From NCBI GenBank assembly GCA_022561955.1, contig JADFQF010000083.1, positions 1 to 6,468 on the forward strand: DNA of 6,468 bases, written 5' to 3'. Positions 3 to 6,468 of this stretch are shown piece after piece. The notes below the pieces were generated by a model. The model did not search any database, was not told the DNA's origin, and worked only from the letters and a program-made list of their open reading frames with translations. Within the stretch, counting starts at the first letter, position 1; every line of letters starts with the position of its first letter. The position numbers and the translations under genes are program-made. Source of the DNA: Chloroflexota bacterium (GTDB lineage Bacteria; Chloroflexota; Dehalococcoidia; SAR202; UBA11138).

Positions 3-1892
3 TCCGTTGAATCGACGTTGCTTGCCGACGCCGTGCAGCGCAGGCCAGACAGCAAGCCTGCGCCAGACTTCGAGCGCCCCGCCAAAGCGAGGACGGTCCT
101 GACCAGGGTACGGGAGAAGCTGGTCCGAAAGCCGAAGACTTCCAAGCCCAAGGCCTCGACCGCAGACCAACAGGTCCCGCAAGAAGCAGCAGCGTCTGCG
201 GAGATTGACAAAAAGCCTACGGAAGCCGCAGGCGAGAAGAGCGCGTCGACCGTGAGGCGCACGCTTGACGCCGGCTCGACGATGCCCTCTTCCATGAGCG
301 GCTCCCCGGCCGGAGAACAAGATATTTCGAGCGACAAGGTGGACGGCGCTCAGTCGGGCCTGCTCTCGCAGCCGATGATGGAGCACAGGGCTGACAGGCA
401 AGAGCCCCTTCGCCGCAGCTCGAAGGACACGGGCGCGGACGAAAACGCTCCCGGCGGCAAACAGTCGGCCCGAGTCGAGAGGTCGGAGGCACCCCCCCGC
501 AGCCTGGGAGAGGTATTTCATAAATCCGAAGACGCTACCCCGACGGCGCAAGACCGCAGGCCAGGTGACGGAGGGCGATCTCTTATTTCCCAGGCCGCTC
601 GCGGGATAATGCTCGGAGCGCAGCGCCTCGTCTTCAGGTCCGCTCCCTCTACCTCGGCAGAGACACCGGCGTTGGCGGGCGGTCAGGCAAAGGCATCTCC
701 GCCAAAGAAGCGTGCCACGCCTCCCGACGCCAGCCAAAGGGAGACCGACGCTCCCCGCGAAACGATGCCGGCTTCAGTGCTTCAACGCGCTGAAGGAACG
801 GCGCCTACACGGAAAGGAATCGTCCACAGAAGGCAAGCGGACAATGCCCCAACCGACGGCGTTGTCGACCGTGCGATTGCAGCCAGGTCACAGACTCGAC
901 CCATTGGCTCGACCGGGGCGGACGCGCTCTCCTCTGCGACGGGAGCGATCAGCAGTTTCCAGGCCTTGAAAAGCATCGTCTCCCGGAAGGCAGCTATAGA
1001 ACCAGGCAGTTCAGTGTCGGCGGAAGAACCCGCAGACCCACGAGCTCCCACTTCGGCAAAAGAGCGCAGCAATGTTCGTTCCGCGCGGGAGCTGCTCCAT
1101 CGAAAGACAGCCGATAGTCCTGCGGAATCAGTCAGCCAAGGTGAGGCGCTCGGTCAGGCGACTCTGAGTTCGCGGTTGGTGCGATCCTCTGAGCGGGGCG
1201 ACGTGAAATCCGAGGATGGGGCCGACGTGCTTCGCTCCGACGGTGACGGCAAGTCTGGGCAACCTACAGCCAGGCCCCGAAATTCGTTAAACCACACGCC
1301 GCAGGCCCAGCGAAGAACACAGCCTGCCTCGACGAACGCACCATTGCAGCGCGCGACGGCAGACACGACAACGTTGATGAGCAAGATAGGCCGGAGTCCC
1401 AACGGCTCCGGGCCCGATGAGACTCTAACGGAATCGGAGACTGGGCGAAATGAAGCCGCGGCGAAAGGACTTGGCAGAAAGCTCGGGGCGATGGTCCATA
1501 AGCGGGAGTCGCACGGCCTGGTCCGTGAAGACGCGCCGCACGTCGGCCCCGCACGACCCTCCAAGGCATCCCGAGCCGCCGACACCAACGCACCCGCCGT
1601 ACAGAGGACTTCGACGGCCAAAGCGCCGGCGTCTTTTCAGGGCAGAGCGGTCCACCGTACACCAATGGTCGGCGTATCAGCGACGACTCAGAACGGGGCC
1701 ATCTCGCGGGTGGTTGAGCAACCGGACCAGACGACGGCGGCAGAGCTCGACGAAACGGAAGAGCCGCTCTATAAGAAATTCACACCGAAGGATATCGAAT
1801 TCCTTAGCTCAAAGATGTTCACGTACATCAAGCGCAGACTCAGCGACGATCGTGAGAGGCACGGGCGGCCCGGCTTTTCCATGTGGTCGTAG
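3..1892 (+). CDS. Disordered repeat-motif protein of the eCIS operon, 5'-partial
   Basis: I do not recognise this protein as a named family. The frame is open to the left edge with no stop before the TTG at 18, so the true start probably lies outside the window; at least 629 residues are encoded. Almost the whole length is rich in Ala, Ser, Thr, Pro, Arg, Glu and Gly with few aromatic residues, as expected of an intrinsically disordered chain. There is no signal peptide or membrane segment in the visible part. A short motif of two aliphatic residues followed by Gln/His and Arg/Lys recurs throughout (VLQR, IVHRR, LLHRK, PLQR, MVHKR, AVQR, AVHR). The last 44 residues (1758-1889) differ: they are charged, contain Phe, Tyr and Trp, and look helical (core FLSSKMFTYIKRRLSDDRER). 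My recollection is that proteins ending in a similar basic helix occur in other eCIS loci, but I could not check this. The position, directly upstream of the LysM tube gene, corresponds to the Afp6/Pvc6 slot, yet this protein is far larger. A role as an assembly factor, tether or cargo adaptor is inference only. Coding is supported by the frame staying open for 1.9 kb and by tight coupling to the next gene. Confidence 0.8.
   Translation, partial: SVESTLLADAVQRRPDSKPAPDFERPAKARTVLTRVREKLVRKPKTSKPKASTADQQVPQEAAASAEIDKKPTEAAGEKSASTVRRTLDAGSTMPSSMSGSPAGEQDISSDKVDGAQSGLLSQPMMEHRADRQEPLRRSSKDTGADENAPGGKQSARVERSEAPPRSLGEVFHKSEDATPTAQDRRPGDGGRSLISQAARGIMLGAQRLVFRSAPSTSAETPALAGGQAKASPPKKRATPPDASQRETDAPRETMPASVLQRAEGTAPTRKGIVHRRQADNAPTDGVVDRAIAARSQTRPIGSTGADALSSATGAISSFQALKSIVSRKAAIEPGSSVSAEEPADPRAPTSAKERSNVRSARELLHRKTADSPAESVSQGEALGQATLSSRLVRSSERGDVKSEDGADVLRSDGDGKSGQPTARPRNSLNHTPQAQRRTQPASTNAPLQRATADTTTLMSKIGRSPNGSGPDETLTESETGRNEAAAKGLGRKLGAMVHKRESHGLVREDAPHVGPARPSKASRAADTNAPAVQRTSTAKAPASFQGRAVHRTPMVGVSATTQNGAISRVVEQPDQTTAAELDETEEPLYKKFTPKDIEFLSSKMFTYIKRRLSDDRERHGRPGFSMWS
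33..1661 (+). repeat. Degenerate ϕϕ(Q/H)(R/K) protein-level motif repeats
   Basis: Within the first gene about twelve short motif copies occur, starting near 33 (VQRR), 252 (VRRT), 513 (VFHK), 627 (LVFR), 777 (VLQR), 819 (IVHRR), 975 (IVSRK), 1092 (LLHRK), 1344 (LQRAT), 1491 (MVHKR), 1596 (AVQRT) and 1647 (AVHRT). Several are followed by a small Ala/Thr-rich stretch such as TADS or TADT, and some are preceded by a short possible amphipathic helix (for example before 627, 975 and 1491). The spacers run from about 14 to 87 residues and are irregular. The copies are not obvious DNA repeats, since codons differ from copy to copy, so the conservation appears to act on the protein. That this is a functional linear motif is inference. 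Confidence 0.5.
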
Positions 1893-1900
1893 GGAAGGAA
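1892..1900 (+). promoter_or_regulatory. Ribosome binding site of the LysM tube gene
   Basis: The sequence GGGAAGGAA begins on the last base of the upstream stop codon and ends seven bases before the ATG at 1908. It supports that start and suggests translation of the two genes is coupled. Confidence 0.75.
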
Positions 1901-1907
1901 TTTTTAA

Positions 1908-2579
1908 ATGGTAACTCAGCCACCGAGTGGGGAGCTGGCAAAGGCAACAATAACGAATCTCGACGACCCCGGCGCTAAGGCGATCGAGGTCTTGTTCAAC
2001 CCGACCGAGTACTCCGTGAGCAAGTCCAACACGTGGCAGCAGGTGAAGGTCGTGGGCTCCAACGTTCCTCGGCTCGAATTTACCTCGGGCGGCGCCACGA
2101 GCCTGAGCATGAACCTCATGTTCGATACCTACGAGAGCGGCGAAGACGTCCGCGATTACACGGGCAAAATCTACGATCTGACCAAGATAGAACCCAAGAC
2201 CGTGGACAAGACCTCCGGCGTGGGGCGTCCACCCAAATGCATGTTCAGCTGGGGGAAGACCTTCAATTTTCCCGCCGTGATAAAGAGCGTGAGCGTTCAA
2301 TACACGTTGTTCAAGTCCGACGGCACTCCCGTTCGCGCCAAGATGAGCCTGAGCCTCGAGGAGTGCGAGGACGATACGAAGAAGGCGGCACAGAACCCGA
2401 CATCTCAAGGGACCATGGGCGAGACCGTCTACGTCGTAAAACCGGGCGACACCATAGATTGGATCGCTCATGAAGAGCTTGGAGATTCGGCTCTATGGCG
2501 GCACATAGCCGACGACAACAATTTGGACAATCCCATGAACCTGCGACCGGGACAGGTCCTGGGCATCAGCATACCGTAA
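1908..2579 (+). CDS. CIS tube-fold protein with C-terminal LysM domain (Afp7/Pvc7-like)
   Basis: This 223-residue protein probably forms the ring that joins the baseplate hub to the first layer of the inner tube. Residues about 10-155 are the CIS tube-type domain. Its hallmark FNPTEY is at residues 30-35, followed by a Trp (W43), an MNLMFDTYE strand, a KCMFSWG segment (about 110-116) and a C-terminal beta strand ending SLSLEE. After a linker of about 20 residues comes a LysM domain at about 174-222 (VYVVKPGDTIDWIAHEELGD, then WRHIADDN, NP and LRPGQVLGI), which is complete. In phage and eCIS particles this LysM-type domain is used for baseplate assembly and not necessarily for binding peptidoglycan. 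The length matches family members of roughly 220-240 residues. No signal peptide is seen, consistent with cytoplasmic assembly. The ATG is set by a good ribosome binding site 15 bp after the previous stop; the next gene starts 14 bp downstream. The family assignment is strong; the exact ring position is inferred from Afp/PVC structures. Confidence 0.93.
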   Translation: MVTQPPSGELAKATITNLDDPGAKAIEVLFNPTEYSVSKSNTWQQVKVVGSNVPRLEFTSGGATSLSMNLMFDTYESGEDVRDYTGKIYDLTKIEPKTVDKTSGVGRPPKCMFSWGKTFNFPAVIKSVSVQYTLFKSDGTPVRAKMSLSLEECEDDTKKAAQNPTSQGTMGETVYVVKPGDTIDWIAHEELGDSALWRHIADDNNLDNPMNLRPGQVLGISIP

Positions 2580-2583
2580 GGAC

Positions 2584-2590
2584 GAGGGAG
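2584..2590 (+). promoter_or_regulatory. Ribosome binding site that decides the VgrG-like start
   Basis: GAGGGAG lies three bases before the ATG at 2594 (six bases if its GAGG core is the pairing segment). It favours 2594 over the in-frame ATG at 2495, which lies inside the LysM gene, has no comparable site and would add 33 residues unlike the family's N-terminus. Confidence 0.75.
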
Positions 2591-2593
2591 AAT

Positions 2594-4456
2594 ATGACCA
2601 CTGAAATCGCCGCATCAATTTTGGAAGTTAAGGTCGGCGGCTCGCTGTTGCAGCAAGCGCTGAGAGACTCGTTGAACGATACCGAGATCCAAAACGACCT
2701 CTATCTGCCCGACGTAGCAACAATGCGCTTTCACTTGAGCTCTCTAAGCAGACTCGGTTTGGACAATGATGTCGAGGCCGTGAGTGAAGCTTTTCCTATT
2801 GGCAAGGAAGTAGAGATCTCAGAGAGGAAATTGGGTGAGAGCGAGAGTAACGTCTTATTCGAGGGCGAGGTCACGTCTTTCTCCTTAGACTTCAAGTCCA
2901 TGATGGACGAGAGCCCGATGACCGTCGTCGTGCAGGCCCATGACAAGTCTCATCGAATGCACCGCGCAAAGAAGACCAAGACGTATCTCAACAAGAAGGC
3001 CTCCGATATCGCGAACGAAATAGCCCGTGAGCATGGCCTGACTCCGAAGGTCGACAGCACGAGCCAGGTCTACGAGCACCTCTTCCAGGCCAACATAACG
3101 GACTCGCAGTTTCTAAAACAGCTGGGCGACCGGGAAAACTGTGAGGTATATGTCAGCCAGGGAGAGCTACATTTCAAGAAACACCCCTCTACACCGGTTA
3201 GCGCCGGGGAGTTGAAATGGGGGAAAGAGCTGATGCAGTTCCGGGTGAAGTCCACCACGGCTTTTCAGATATCAGAGGTAGAGGTCGGGGGCTGGGACGT
3301 AATGAAGAAGGCGCCCATCACGGGAAGCGCGAAGTCTTCCAAGGTCCCCTACAAGATAGGAGAGGGCAAATCGGGTCCCGATATATCCAAGGCGGCCTTC
3401 GGCAATTCAATGGTGAAGATAGTTGACGTTCCCGTCGCCACCCAGGGCGAGGCGGACACGCTGGCCAAGTCGCTGGCGGAACAGGGCGCGAGAGACCACC
3501 TCTACGCCGAAGGAGTTGTCGCCGAGGGAATGGGCCAGATATTGCCGGGCAAGTCAGTGGACATTAAGGGGGTCGGCAGTACCTTCGACGGAAAGTACTT
3601 CATCACATCCACAACACACCGGTTCTCAGGAGACGAAGGCTACACGACGGCGTTCGAGGCAGGCAGCCGCCGACCCGGCACGCTTCTGGAGGCCGCGGGG
3701 GGCGGGGGTCAGTCAACATCTGTCGTCCACGGCTTTAACGGCGTTGTAGTGGGCCTCGTGACCAACAACAACGACAGCGAGAAGAAGCTCGGCAGGGTCA
3801 AGGTGAAGTTCCCCTGGTTGGATGACAATCAGGAGAGCCACTGGGCCCGCATCGCCACTCCCGACGCCGGTCCCGGAAGAGGGATGATGTGGATCCCGGA
3901 AGTGAATGATGAGGTCCTCATCGCCTTCGAGCACGGCGACATCAACAGGCCGTACGTCCTGGGAGGGTTGTGGAACGGGAAGGATGAGATGCCGGTCCCG
4001 CTGAGCGATGCCGTCGGAAGCGACGGCAAGGTGAATCAACGAATCATCAAGTCCCGGTCGGGCCACGTCATCATAATGGACGATACCCAGGGCAAGGAGT
4101 CCATCACGATACGCGACAAGACCGAGAAGAATGAGATCGTCATCGATTCCGCTAAAAACACCATATCCCTCAGGGTCGACGACGCGATTAGCGTGGAGGC
4201 TAAGGGCAAGATCACGTTCAAATCTTCGATGGACGACTTCATCATCGAATGTAAGAACTTCAAGGTGAACGCGCAGCAGAACAGCGAGATAAAGGCGAAC
4301 GCCAAGATTCTGGTGCAGTCCTCCGGGCAGCTCGAGATGAAGGGCATGCAGGCCACCCTGGAGGGCACGGTGAAGGCCGAGGTCAAGGGCGCGATGGTCG
4401 GTGTCGTCGGACAGACTCTGACCGAGATCAAGGGCATGATAGTCAAGATTAATTAG
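2594..4456 (+). CDS. VgrG-type baseplate hub and spike protein (Afp8/Pvc8-like)
   Basis: This 620-residue protein should trimerise to form the central hub and the membrane-piercing spike. Residues about 1-365 are the hub, of the phage late control gene D (gpD) type: an N-terminal SILEVKVGGSLLQQAL strand, a central NITDSQFLKQLGDRENCEVY segment (about 167-186), and an end piece with VDIKGVGSTFDGKYFI and a TTHRF turn. A Gly-rich linker (AAGGGGQ) leads to the gp5-type OB fold at about 377-465, marked by GRVKVKFPWLDD, SHWARIATPDAG, GMMWIPEVNDEVLIAF and RPYVLGGLWNG; the last three are classic VgrG signatures. From about 478 to 620 runs a beta-helix-like tail of alternating short hydrophobic and charged strands (HVIIMDD, ESITIRD, EIVIDS and so on), ending in MIVKIN. 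Nothing follows the beta helix, so there is no fused effector or PAAR domain. The two-domain fusion is seen in both eCIS hubs and T6SS VgrG; the neighbours favour eCIS. The start is chosen from the ribosome binding site and the family N-terminus. Confidence 0.94.
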   Translation: MTTEIAASILEVKVGGSLLQQALRDSLNDTEIQNDLYLPDVATMRFHLSSLSRLGLDNDVEAVSEAFPIGKEVEISERKLGESESNVLFEGEVTSFSLDFKSMMDESPMTVVVQAHDKSHRMHRAKKTKTYLNKKASDIANEIAREHGLTPKVDSTSQVYEHLFQANITDSQFLKQLGDRENCEVYVSQGELHFKKHPSTPVSAGELKWGKELMQFRVKSTTAFQISEVEVGGWDVMKKAPITGSAKSSKVPYKIGEGKSGPDISKAAFGNSMVKIVDVPVATQGEADTLAKSLAEQGARDHLYAEGVVAEGMGQILPGKSVDIKGVGSTFDGKYFITSTTHRFSGDEGYTTAFEAGSRRPGTLLEAAGGGGQSTSVVHGFNGVVVGLVTNNNDSEKKLGRVKVKFPWLDDNQESHWARIATPDAGPGRGMMWIPEVNDEVLIAFEHGDINRPYVLGGLWNGKDEMPVPLSDAVGSDGKVNQRIIKSRSGHVIIMDDTQGKESITIRDKTEKNEIVIDSAKNTISLRVDDAISVEAKGKITFKSSMDDFIIECKNFKVNAQQNSEIKANAKILVQSSGQLEMKGMQATLEGTVKAEVKGAMVGVVGQTLTEIKGMIVKIN

Positions 4457-4511
4457 CACCGTTCGATATGTTTACGGACTGCCGCAATGCAGAAGAAGGA
4501 AGACGAAAGAT
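4457..4511 (+). other. 55-bp gap between hub and gp25 genes
   Basis: This is the widest spacer in the window. It holds the ribosome binding site of the next gene but no convincing terminator: the only inverted pair noticed, CCGT with ACGG, is four base pairs long. I see no PAAR gene, which is too large for this space, and no clear promoter. Read-through transcription is therefore likely. Confidence 0.5.
4496..4500 (+). promoter_or_regulatory. Ribosome binding site of the gp25-like gene
   Basis: AAGGA sits in a purine-rich run (4491-4510), eleven bases before the ATG at 4512. The spacing is a little long and the rest of the run could contribute. The next in-frame ATG is at codon 29, inside the conserved region, so 4512 is the best start. 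Confidence 0.55.
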
Positions 4512-4925
4512 ATGAACTCGCCGGATAGAAGCAGAAACTTCCTGGGTCAGGGATGGACGTACCCTCTGGGCGTGGACGGGACCGGCGGCATAGCGATGTC
4601 CAGGGGCGAGAACGACATCGAGAACTCCATTCTCGCAATTCTGGGCACGGCCAAGGGCGAGCGCGTGATGCGTCCGGACTTTGGCTCATCCATCCACGAT
4701 TTTATCTTCGCGCCGAACAACGCGACGACACACGGGCTTCTCAGCTACCACGTCCGCGACGCCCTGGGATTCTGGGAGCCTCGAATCGAGGTGACGGACG
4801 TAGATGTGGCGGCGGACGAGCTGAATCCGAGCCGCGTGCTTATCAACATCGGCTACACAGTCATTACCACCAACGACAATCGAAACCTGGTCTATCCCTA
4901 CTACCTGATTCCCCTGGAGGAATAA
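4512..4925 (+). CDS. gp25-like baseplate wedge protein (GPW/gp25 family; Afp9/Pvc9-like)
   Basis: This 137-residue protein is a baseplate wedge subunit. In T4-type and eCIS baseplates gp25 starts sheath polymerisation, because its fold resembles the sheath handshake domain. The N-terminal FLGQGWTYPLGV (10-21) matches the G-x-GW-x-x-P lead-in usual in eCIS members. The family core is plain: IENSILAILGTAKGERVMRP with GERVMRPDFG at 49-58, which holds the conserved Glu-Arg and Phe-Gly pairs, then HVRDALGFWEPRIEVTDVDV (W88, EPRI 89-92), and a closing beta strand rich in Tyr. The length is typical (about 130-145). The stop is only three bases before the next gene's ATG, and the end of this gene carries that gene's ribosome binding site, so wedge subunits are likely made in a coupled ratio. 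No signal peptide is present. The family call is firm. Confidence 0.95.
   Translation: MNSPDRSRNFLGQGWTYPLGVDGTGGIAMSRGENDIENSILAILGTAKGERVMRPDFGSSIHDFIFAPNNATTHGLLSYHVRDALGFWEPRIEVTDVDVAADELNPSRVLINIGYTVITTNDNRNLVYPYYLIPLEE
4916..4921 (+). promoter_or_regulatory. Ribosome binding site of the gpJ-like gene
   Basis: GGAGGA is a near-perfect Shine-Dalgarno sequence seven bases before the ATG at 4929. It lies inside the last sense codons (Leu-Glu-Glu) of the gp25-like gene, which ties the two genes together and is the strongest such site in the window. Confidence 0.85.
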
Positions 4926-4928
4926 GTC

Positions 4929-6468
4929 ATGGTACTACCAGTCCCAAACCTGGACGACCGTACGTTCCAGGACATCGTGAACGAGGCCCGTCGGAGGATC
5001 CCGCTCTACTGCCCGGAGTGGACGGACCACAATCTCAGTGACCCCGGCATTACGCTGATCGAGCTCTTCGCATGGATGACCGAGATGATCATCTACAGGA
5101 TGAACAAGGTGCCGGACAAGAACTACGTCAAGTTCCTGGAGCTGATAGGCGTGGAGCTCGCGCCCGCGGCCTCCGCATCCACGGAGGTAAGCTTCCTGCT
5201 TTCGGCCTCACAGCCCATTGCAGTCACCATACCCCAGGGGACCGAGGTCTCCACCGTCCGTACCGAGACCGAGGACGCCATCGAGTTCACGACCCTGGAG
5301 GATGTGCGAGTCGAGCCCGCGGACCTACAATACCTCCTGATCAGCGACGACGGCTCGGAGTTCGACGACCGACTCCCCGTACTACGGGACTGGGAGGGCA
5401 TGGTGGGCATGCCGGGAGAGCAGGGCCGCAGAATCAACCTCTTTGCCGATGCGCCCTTTCCGGGCAACGCCTTTTACCTCGGCTTCGGCAATAGCCTTCA
5501 GCGCGCCATAATGTCCGTCTCGCTGGGCTGCTCGGAGCGTGCGGCGCCGGGGATAGTGCCCACGAATCCGCCTTTGCGCTGGGAATATTGGAACTCCGAG
5601 ACGCAAGACTGGGCCGAATTTCAGAAGAGTCGAGATGCCGAGGCATGGCTCGAAGAGGACGGCACGCGAGGGCTGAATGCCCCGGGCAACGTTGTGTTGC
5701 ACCTGCCGGGAAAGGCCGGTACATCCGTCATCGGACTCAGGGAGGCGAACTGGATCAGATGCGTGGTCGTTCAGGGAACGGCGGAGACTGGGTCCTACGA
5801 GGCGTCGCCACAGATCGGCACTGCGTCGGCCACGAATCTTGGTGGCGTCGCCCTGGCCGCCAACACTACTTCGTTCGAACACGAGGTGCTGGGCACCGGC
5901 GACGGCTCGTCCGGGCAGATCTTCACCGTGGGCCAGCTGCCGGCACTGCCCTTGGGACCCGAAGAGACCGTAGAGGTGGAGCTGGAGGACGGGTCGGGCT
6001 GGGACCTGTGGGAGCAGGTCTCCGATTTCGCGGCCTCGAGCCACGAAGACAAACATTTCACATTCGACGCCGTATCGGGCGAGGTAAGATTCGGTCCCGT
6101 GATAAGGACACCCAGCGGCGAGGAGAGGCAGTACGGCGCGGTTCCCCCGGCGGGCATGTCCATCGGACTCACGTCATACAGGTTCGGCGGCGGACCCAAC
6201 GGCAACGTGGGCCCGGATACACTGACCGCCCTGAAATCCTCGATACCCTACGTCGCTTCCGTCACGAATAGACGGGTGGCCAGCGGCGGAGTAGACCCCG
6301 AGGGCATCGAGTACGCCAAGATGCGAGGGCCCCAGACCTTGCGTACCGGAAACCGCGCTGTCACCGAAGAGGACTTCGAGCACCTCGCCAGGGAGGCGTC
6401 GCCCTCGGTGGTCAGGGCCAGATGCATACAGCCGAGGGAGGTAGGCACCGAAGGCGACCCGCTTCCAG
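4929..6468 (+). CDS. gpJ-like baseplate wedge protein (Afp11/Pvc11-like), 3'-partial
   Basis: The frame runs open from the ATG at 4929 to the right edge, giving 513 residues of a protein that continues outside the window. It belongs to the putative baseplate assembly (baseplate J-like) proteins, the large wedge subunits that link the hub to the sheath and to the outer baseplate. Residues 1-80 hold the family's conserved N-terminus: LDDRTFQDIVNEARRRIPLY, then WTDHNLSDPGITLIELFAWM (about 36-55), EMIIYRMNKVPDKNYVKFLE and LIGVEL. A beta-rich middle follows with STEVSFLL and ITIP-like strands (VTIPQGTEVST), a Trp-rich stretch (LRWEYWNSETQDWAEF) and VSGEVRFGP. From about residue 450, GGVDPEGIEYAKMRGPQTLR and RAVTEEDFEHLAREASPSVV mark the start of the most conserved J-like core. 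No in-frame stop or frameshift is seen. A second, usually larger, J-like gene (Afp12-like) would be expected downstream. The family is clear; the one-to-one match to Afp11 is inferred from gene order. Confidence 0.93.
   Translation, partial: MVLPVPNLDDRTFQDIVNEARRRIPLYCPEWTDHNLSDPGITLIELFAWMTEMIIYRMNKVPDKNYVKFLELIGVELAPAASASTEVSFLLSASQPIAVTIPQGTEVSTVRTETEDAIEFTTLEDVRVEPADLQYLLISDDGSEFDDRLPVLRDWEGMVGMPGEQGRRINLFADAPFPGNAFYLGFGNSLQRAIMSVSLGCSERAAPGIVPTNPPLRWEYWNSETQDWAEFQKSRDAEAWLEEDGTRGLNAPGNVVLHLPGKAGTSVIGLREANWIRCVVVQGTAETGSYEASPQIGTASATNLGGVALAANTTSFEHEVLGTGDGSSGQIFTVGQLPALPLGPEETVEVELEDGSGWDLWEQVSDFAASSHEDKHFTFDAVSGEVRFGPVIRTPSGEERQYGAVPPAGMSIGLTSYRFGGGPNGNVGPDTLTALKSSIPYVASVTNRRVASGGVDPEGIEYAKMRGPQTLRTGNRAVTEEDFEHLAREASPSVVRARCIQPREVGTEGDPLP

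Follow-up and report, generated by a model that had tools for sequence, protein, structure and literature searches.

A predicted-disordered protein with a conserved C-terminal helix, encoded before the LysM gene of CIS clusters, as a candidate tape-measure-like lumen protein

Introduction

Myophage tail genes are arranged in the order sheath, tube, chaperones, tape measure and hub. For the tailocin diffocin, the available part of the report (PMC10996793) describes a tape measure that is a trimer, meets the spike with its C-terminal helix and extends over 1388 Å in the lumen. Accounts of CIS particles, in the excerpts at hand, describe Alg6 as a trimer that occupies the tube-facing cavity of the spike and is required for assembly; the Anabaena plug as having a flexible loop that reaches into the lumen; and Cgo1 and Cgo2 as lumen cargo in AlgoCIS. 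In the accessible passages of the respective reports, the clusters of S. coelicolor, S. venezuelae, S. lividans and H. borinquense are presented as having no tape measure, and that of H. borinquense as having no plug either; the S. coelicolor particles analysed in one such report were of identical length, with 60 tube layers.

Here we describe a long protein encoded at the start of the window, i.e. the whole 6,468-nucleotide stretch of Chloroflexota DNA analysed, and follow its relatives across CIS clusters. The protein consists of a predicted-disordered arm and a conserved C-terminal helix, and may belong to the lumen of the tube.

Results

The first frame of the window is open at the 5' end and thus represents a 5'-truncated gene (Table 1). 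Its stop lies 15 nt from the start of the LysM gene, and the two may be translationally coupled; Pfam assigns the genes that follow on the same strand to LysM tube, VgrG-like spike, gp25-like and baseplate J-like proteins, i.e. to the eCIS operon recognised in the preliminary description. The gene before the arm lies outside the window, and the slot was therefore read from the best relative, L001 (JADFKI010000067, a Chloroflexi MAG), the LysM protein of which is 96% identical to that of the window. The arm ORF of L001 is complete (1160 aa counted from the first TTG) and stands between a gp19-like tube gene and the LysM (Cis7) gene, which is the position of the plug gene and agrees with the Afp6/Pvc6 slot proposed beforehand. 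Neither Pfam nor PHROG families matched the window protein at E<=1, its long region included; Rfam gave no match at the gathering threshold; and the DNA repeats inside the arm gene are just short two-copy ones.

Table 1. Coordinates of features in the window, in L001 and in loci with short helix proteins
Feature	Location	Strand	Basis or remark
Arm-plus-helix protein gene	3..1892	+	629 codons within window; 5' end outside
Predicted-disordered low-complexity arm	3..1784	+	AlphaFold2 ten-residue block means 32-53; composition
Nine [VIL][QHR]R motifs	33..1658	+	33-41, 252-260, 408-416, 780-788, 822-830, 1095-1103, 1344-1352, 1599-1607, 1650-1658
Conserved C-terminal helix (residues 595-620), proposed spike anchor	1785..1862	+	
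15-nt gap with GGAAGGAA ribosome-binding-like stretch ahead of LysM gene	1893..1907	+	Read directly
Cis7/Afp7, CIS tube plus LysM protein	1908..2579	+	PF19266 1.3e-32, PF01476 2.3e-5
Cis8/Afp8 spike (VgrG-like)	2594..4456	+	PF04717 3.7e-29, PF05954 1.5e-10
Cis9 gp25-like protein	4512..4925	+	PF04965 6.9e-25
Cis11-type baseplate J-like protein	4929..6468	+	PF04865 3.6e-12; 3' end beyond window
L001 tube gene	517-978		
L001 arm gene	1012-4494		
L001 LysM gene	4507/4510		
Short like-helix protein, L035	6460-6645		
Short like-helix protein, L051	6634-6849		
Short like-helix protein, L013	6632-6952		
Short like-helix protein, L017	6633-6974		
Short like-helix protein, L066	4664-4864		
Short like-helix protein, L011	3546-3851		
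Short like-helix protein, L030	2473-2757		

The frame is a real gene and no chance frame, because dN/dS between the window and L001 is 0.59 across the 563 codons of the arm compared and 0.12 across the final 45 (LysM, 0.06; spike, 0.17), at an arm identity of 65% with four indels. Three further pairs gave 0.66, 0.22 and 0.43 in the arm, with 0, 0.01 and 0.10 in the final 45 codons; in three of the four pairs compared, dN of the C-terminal helix is about zero.

Composition and modelling both point to a disordered arm. Aromatic residues make up 0.9% of the first 584 positions and P/A/G/S/T/Q 54.6%, with cysteine absent, compared with 7.6% aromatic residues and 40.4% P/A/G/S/T/Q in LysM of the same window, and the arm is rich in proline; the TOP-IDP scale was used alongside composition. 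AlphaFold2 with a five-row alignment placed 562 of the 629 residues below pLDDT 50 and returned one confident helix (Table 1); the model shows, besides end helices, three helices of 13-20 residues, mostly of low confidence, and no long helical or coiled-coil structure was predicted in the arm. With five rows, such low confidence supports disorder and is no proof of it; composition agrees. A model of the last 60 residues (72-row alignment) contains the same helix at residues 26-51, with a mean pLDDT of 96 in the best ten-residue block. The long low-complexity, aromatic-poor protein, its predicted disorder and the conserved folded module at its C-terminus, all suggested in the preliminary description, are thus each upheld.

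The net charge of the arm is just slightly positive (42 of 68 arms), and an electrostatic match of the arm to a negative lumen proved weak. A lumen of 90.2 x 3.6 nm would be about half occupied by three chains of 1160 aa; packing of three arm chains would thus be possible, which proves nothing.

The long arm is usual in related CIS clusters. A scan for LysM relatives gave 300 matches, from which 80 genome loci were kept and joined by one locus of a viral collection; an ORF that ends beside LysM with a matching C-terminal helix (E<1e-4) was present in 71 of these 81 loci, or in 42 of the 52 that had supplied no seed to the helix profile (29 of the 81 had). A second set was drawn from 201 genomes of the phylum of L021, inferred to be Chloroflexota, as the 30 best LysM matches, one per genome, at least three of which also belong to the first set: 27 of the 30 loci encode an arm-plus-helix protein, directly before LysM in 19 and one gene further up (arm, tube, LysM) in eight, two of these eight matching the helix weakly (E 0.17 and 0.75); in the remaining three, no helix ORF was seen within the 1.5 kb examined. 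Twenty actinobacterial stretches together with L122 yielded 18 arms of 597-1395 aa; L205 showed none, and the stretches of L190 and L194 are too short to show one. Arm lengths run from about 200 to 1896 aa. The comparison of the gene before LysM across eCIS loci therefore places the arm repeatedly in the same position, and the one-off enlargement of Afp6 that had been envisaged for this locus gives way to a recurrent protein.

Annotation can miss arm genes. In L122 (Streptomyces clavuligerus plasmid, 1258-5409), an open arm frame of 1383 codons is annotated over its last 216 nt alone; in L082 (Haloferax larsenii plasmid, 1851-8819), an open frame of 2322 codons precedes LysM, and the last 534 nt (178 codons) alone are annotated.

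Other loci differ in their arrangement. In L054 (15170-20360, a Deinococcales MAG), some 5 kb past the LysM gene of the locus, a chaperone gene precedes an arm-type frame of 1450 codons that contains an eCIS-core-like domain, and the two are perhaps part of a second CIS. The plasmid CIS of Treponema succinifaciens (L124, 5525-6609) has tube and LysM genes with nothing annotated between them, and a chaperone was not found there. In the Deinococcus cluster L128, the slot holds a 344-codon unclassified frame.

Arms share a recurring tripeptide motif. In an unguided count of tripeptides over 68 arms, IQR (46 vs 4.3 expected) and VQR (66 vs 9.1) ranked first; the generalised [VIL][QHR]R occurred 308 times vs 95 in shuffles and was significant in 30 of the 68, compared with 677 vs 626 in 462 downstream frames of at least 200 aa from the same loci, spurious frames included. 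The window arm has nine such motifs vs 1.2 expected, a count reached by none of 2000 shuffles, and motif residues are kept in L001 more often than the rest of the arm (24/27 vs 325/536; Fisher p 0.002). In the 18 actinobacterial arms, which lay outside motif discovery, [VIL][QHR]R was found 242 times vs 21 expected and [VI]QR 181 times vs 3.2, with significance in 17 of the 18; here the motif reads approximately P-[PA]-V-Q-R-[AT] and is distributed over the whole arm. Longer arms carry more motifs, with rho 0.67 (p 0.002) among the 18 actinobacterial arms and 0.44 among the first 68. Spacing is more even than chance in the actinobacterial arms (CV 0.70 vs 1.02) and shows little extra evenness in the first set (1.24 vs 1.33).

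Repeats of other kinds were seen in single arms. That of L002 (1-2241) consists of some ten tandem copies of a unit of about 21 residues around ATTIHRKA or ATTIRRKA, i.e. around the motif; those of L011 (5747-9964) and L030 (4244-9934) contain, by eye, several copies of a unit marked by an LDWVAG-like signature; and DWV occurs 12 times in five arms.

A tail-assembly-chaperone gene accompanies the arm. The label rests on the match of one member to phrog_508 'tail assembly chaperone' (L004, E 1.8e-5) and on the PGAP name 'phage tail assembly protein' in two (L083, L123). The gene precedes the arm in every one of the 62 arm loci that extend more than 2.5 kb further upstream, which represent 59 LysM clusters at 90%, or in 55 of 55 once the seven loci that supplied the chaperone profile are set aside; a DUF6760-like gene is upstream in 52 of the 62. 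Among actinobacterial arm loci it was found in 17 of 18, the exception being L196, which brings the total to 79 of the 80 arms examined. It was found in none of ten clusters with DUF5908 (six, all with about 8 kb upstream), another small gene (three: L084, L127, L129) or nothing (L124) in the slot, and not in L128. Six loci (L036, L042, L054, L074, L077, L205) have the chaperone and no helix-profile ORF directly before LysM; in L036, L042, L074 and L077 that place is taken by an ORF of 191-1423 aa. Counted over LysM clusters at 90% identity, with L128 taken as non-arm and those six loci left out, the association gives a Fisher p of 5e-13, which overstates the case because clusters within a clade are not independent events.

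Gene order in the relatives is sheath-tube-chaperone-DUF6760-arm-tube-LysM, or has the last tube before the arm; in L001, the end of a chaperone gene and a DUF6760-like frame lie ahead of the tube gene. In these relatives (the window itself begins inside the arm gene) the arm is encoded between tail-assembly chaperones and hub genes, so that by analogy of gene order its position is that of the phage tape measure gene.

The slot before LysM is otherwise held by DUF5908. Among 398 genomes of the phylum of L079, inferred to be Pseudomonadota, seven have a DUF5908 protein (one below the family cut-off), in every case on the same strand and within 500 nt before LysM. A profile of six DUF5908 proteins (A4) retrieves Algo6 (7aef), Anabaena Asl3322 (7b5h) and a Photorhabdus chain (9qgm), with SalCis6 (9rce) as a weaker match at E 0.015; DUF5908 is therefore the plug family. 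An arm-plus-helix protein occurs together with DUF5908 in none of 156 LysM loci, many of which have little upstream sequence. DUF5908 was found at E<=0.001 in none of 32 genomes of first-set loci, a search with no positive-control match, and in none of 151 genomes of a sample sharing genomes with the Chloroflexota sample, in which the controls were silent and which is uninformative on Bacteroidota.

The arm and DUF5908 share this slot, and homology between them is undetectable by sequence. The alignment of the arm helix to DUF5908 reached a probability of 0.4% (hhalign); neither the window protein nor that of L001 matched DUF5908 or any Pfam family at E<=1; and PDB searches with the helix profiles A2 and A3 (E<=10) returned none of the plug chains retrieved by A4, so that homology of the helix to solved plug structures was not found at this level. 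Two small Chloroflexota proteins, P0135 and P0136, join an MPI/MPV start to an arm-type helix (hhalign 93%, E 3.7e-7), and their start shows no significant match to DUF5908 (1.8%). With regard to the combination of N-terminal strand and C-terminal helix, the helix is predicted in the arm protein, L001 has no MPIEI-type start and the N-terminus of the window protein is missing.

Searches for further relatives of the helix returned little else. Residues 500-629 of the window protein, compared by phmmer with full-length candidates, found the window's own protein alone; among short proteins, profile A2 gave ten matches, one of them the window's own, that by eye resemble C-terminal pieces of arms. 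In several arm clusters a second short protein with a like terminal helix is encoded upstream of the arm (Table 1), and a plug mixing short and long chains is conceivable.

An eCIS_core-like (PF13699) domain, counted with a home-made profile (E<=1e-4) over the 62 arm loci with full upstream sequence, lies inside the arm in 16 of them (13 LysM clusters), and Pfam confirms it in four (L006, L017, L020, L053); it is absent from the 5'-cut window protein and from the complete one of L001. Stand-alone eCIS_core ORFs, 24 in all, likewise carry more copies of the arm motif than expected (80 vs 26.7, significant in eight).

Discussion

Given that the arm gene occupies the tape-measure slot, that the available passages present the clusters named above as having no tape measure and that the S. 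coelicolor particles described there are uniform, we read the arm as a tape-measure-like lumen protein; these arms come from relatives, and the clusters of the published strains themselves are not their source. That the arm is a disordered, lumen-resident, tape-measure-like CIS protein anchored at the spike has, in our judgement, slightly more in its favour than against it. The C-terminal helix, probably trimeric, would dock at the spike/LysM hub in the cavity that faces the tube, the site of Alg6 or of the C-terminal helix of a tailocin tape measure; the long arm would reach up through the lumen as the tube assembles, and the repeated [VIL][QHR]R motifs may serve as contact points; the tail-assembly chaperone encoded upstream, usually with its DUF6760 partner, may keep the arm soluble and bring tube subunits; and on firing the arm would exit through the tube, carrying the eCIS core domain along in about a quarter of the relatives. 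On this reading the arm may also take part in setting tube length. Among the functions suggested in the preliminary description, that of a lumen filler or assembly scaffold comes close to this reading.

The lengths involved can be set side by side. By our own arithmetic, the diffocin tape measure (1388 Å, modelled end at residue 817) spans about 1.7 Å per residue; at this scale the nine arms nearest the Streptomyces clavuligerus one (1015-1395 aa) would cover 173-237 nm, and the published 60 layers, at 90.2 nm per 22 layers, amount to about 246 nm, a rough fit between arms from relatives and a tube measured in S. coelicolor.

Several results count against a tape measure. No PHROG tape-measure family matched the window protein or five long relatives; coiled coil is not predicted; seven related pairs gave no sign of indel balancing to keep length; and the shortest arms, of about 200 aa, could not span a known tube as helix. 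The arm of L196, for which no chaperone was found, the chaperone loci with no helix-profile ORF, and L128 were counted on the same side. In the accessible text of the published reports, sheath length is heterogeneous in H. borinquense, a second study of S. coelicolor gives a mean of 295 nm with empty sheaths of varying length, and the proteomics of S. coelicolor particles names sco4242, sco4256 and sco4251 and not the gene expected to be the arm. The missing family match and coiled coil, the short arms, the absence of indel balancing, the heterogeneous sheaths and the proteomics therefore keep alive, as an unlikely yet serious alternative, a spike-anchored cargo or cargo adaptor with no part in length setting, the arm and motifs of which would carry or recruit effectors in the lumen. 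Such a role would suit the fused eCIS_core-like domain, which is typical of lumen cargo, and the enrichment of the arm motif in stand-alone eCIS_core ORFs; moreover, according to the published excerpt, binding of a DUF4157 protein of S. lividans to tube initiator, hub and spike proteins has been assayed. It leaves unexplained, however, why clusters with an arm also have the chaperone and those with a small gene in the slot do not, and why most arms carry no recognisable domain. Because roughly one arm in four contains the core domain, a single chain can serve as cargo as well.

It is improbable that the protein is an enlarged Afp6/Alg6 plug, i.e. a nucleation module with a flexible extension that has little function of its own. 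The shared slot, the mutual exclusion of arm and DUF5908 and the composite P0135 and P0136 are what such an origin would lead one to expect, but neither the helix nor the MPI/MPV start is detectably homologous to DUF5908; furthermore, the arm is under purifying selection in all four pairs and its motifs are kept, and it is therefore not functionless. We give still less weight to an assembly-only scaffold absent from the mature particle, or to an outside tether: a transient scaffold could well be disordered and linked to a chaperone, and the available S. coelicolor proteomics text is silent on the expected arm gene, but the core domain fused in relatives argues for a place in the cargo space of the particle. 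That the low-complexity frame has no protein product at all can practically be dismissed, the omission of most of the arm frame from two public records (L122, L082) being outweighed by dN/dS below 1, by the conserved helix and by the occurrence of the same motif in arms from different phyla.

A lumen-resident, tape-measure-like arm admits a wider proposal, which we advance tentatively and with more doubt than belief: one overlooked protein would be both the plug and the tape measure that a share of CIS has seemed to lack, as a disordered beads-on-a-string chain in which spaced [VIL][QHR]R motifs, instead of a coiled coil, gauge the tube, one helix anchors at the spike and phage-type tail-assembly chaperones tend the chain. 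The kind of protein, a lumen protein anchored at the hub, is known already; new is a disordered, motif-repeat version that replaces the small plug and travels with tail-assembly chaperones, for which no earlier report was found in the open-access literature. The recurring motif and the accompanying chaperone gene are likewise new as far as that literature shows. The phage tape-measure gene order thus occurs in kinds of cluster that the available passages present as having no tape measure, and the conserved chaperone-linked ORF in the slot of the relatives makes the question of what sets tube length without Afp14 directly testable. The motif common to arms and eCIS_core ORFs offers one candidate means of retaining proteins inside the tube.

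Phage tape measures resemble the arm in being long proteins encoded after the tail-assembly chaperones and before the hub. They also share with it a C-terminal helix, which lies at the spike in the diffocin protein as described in the accessible text (PMC10996793) and is proposed to do so in the arm; the diffocin trimer, however, is for the most part coiled coil and has predicted transmembrane helices, whereas the arm is predicted to be disordered. Afp14/Pvc14, the tape measure of AFP and PVC, compares with the arm, by description only, in its proposed job of setting tube length, and is reported absent from Streptomyces and haloarchaeal clusters in the passages at hand. The Alg6/Cis6/Afp6/Pvc6 plug (DUF5908, PF19265; PDB 7aef, 7b5h, 9qgm, 9rce) shares with the arm the slot before LysM and a C-terminal helix, and is found in clusters without an arm; unlike the arm, the seven proteins seen here are small and begin with an MxIEI-type strand, and their clusters, unlike arm clusters, lack the chaperone wherever about 8 kb upstream could be read. 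DUF4157/eCIS_core effectors (Cgo1 and Cgo2 of AlgoCIS) have a disordered N-terminal part like the arm, according to the published excerpt, and eCIS_core ORFs in the loci examined carry the [VIL][QHR]R motif, whereas the window and L001 proteins have no core domain. Finally, Tme of Streptomyces davawensis (PMC11126660), compared by description in the available text, differs from the arm in its C-terminal endonuclease domain, coiled coils and transmembrane helices and is published as an effector; it has a DUF4157 domain, co-eluted with spike and tube initiator and, like the arm, is large, predicted disordered for much of its length (about 70% in Tme) and encoded just upstream of the baseplate genes.
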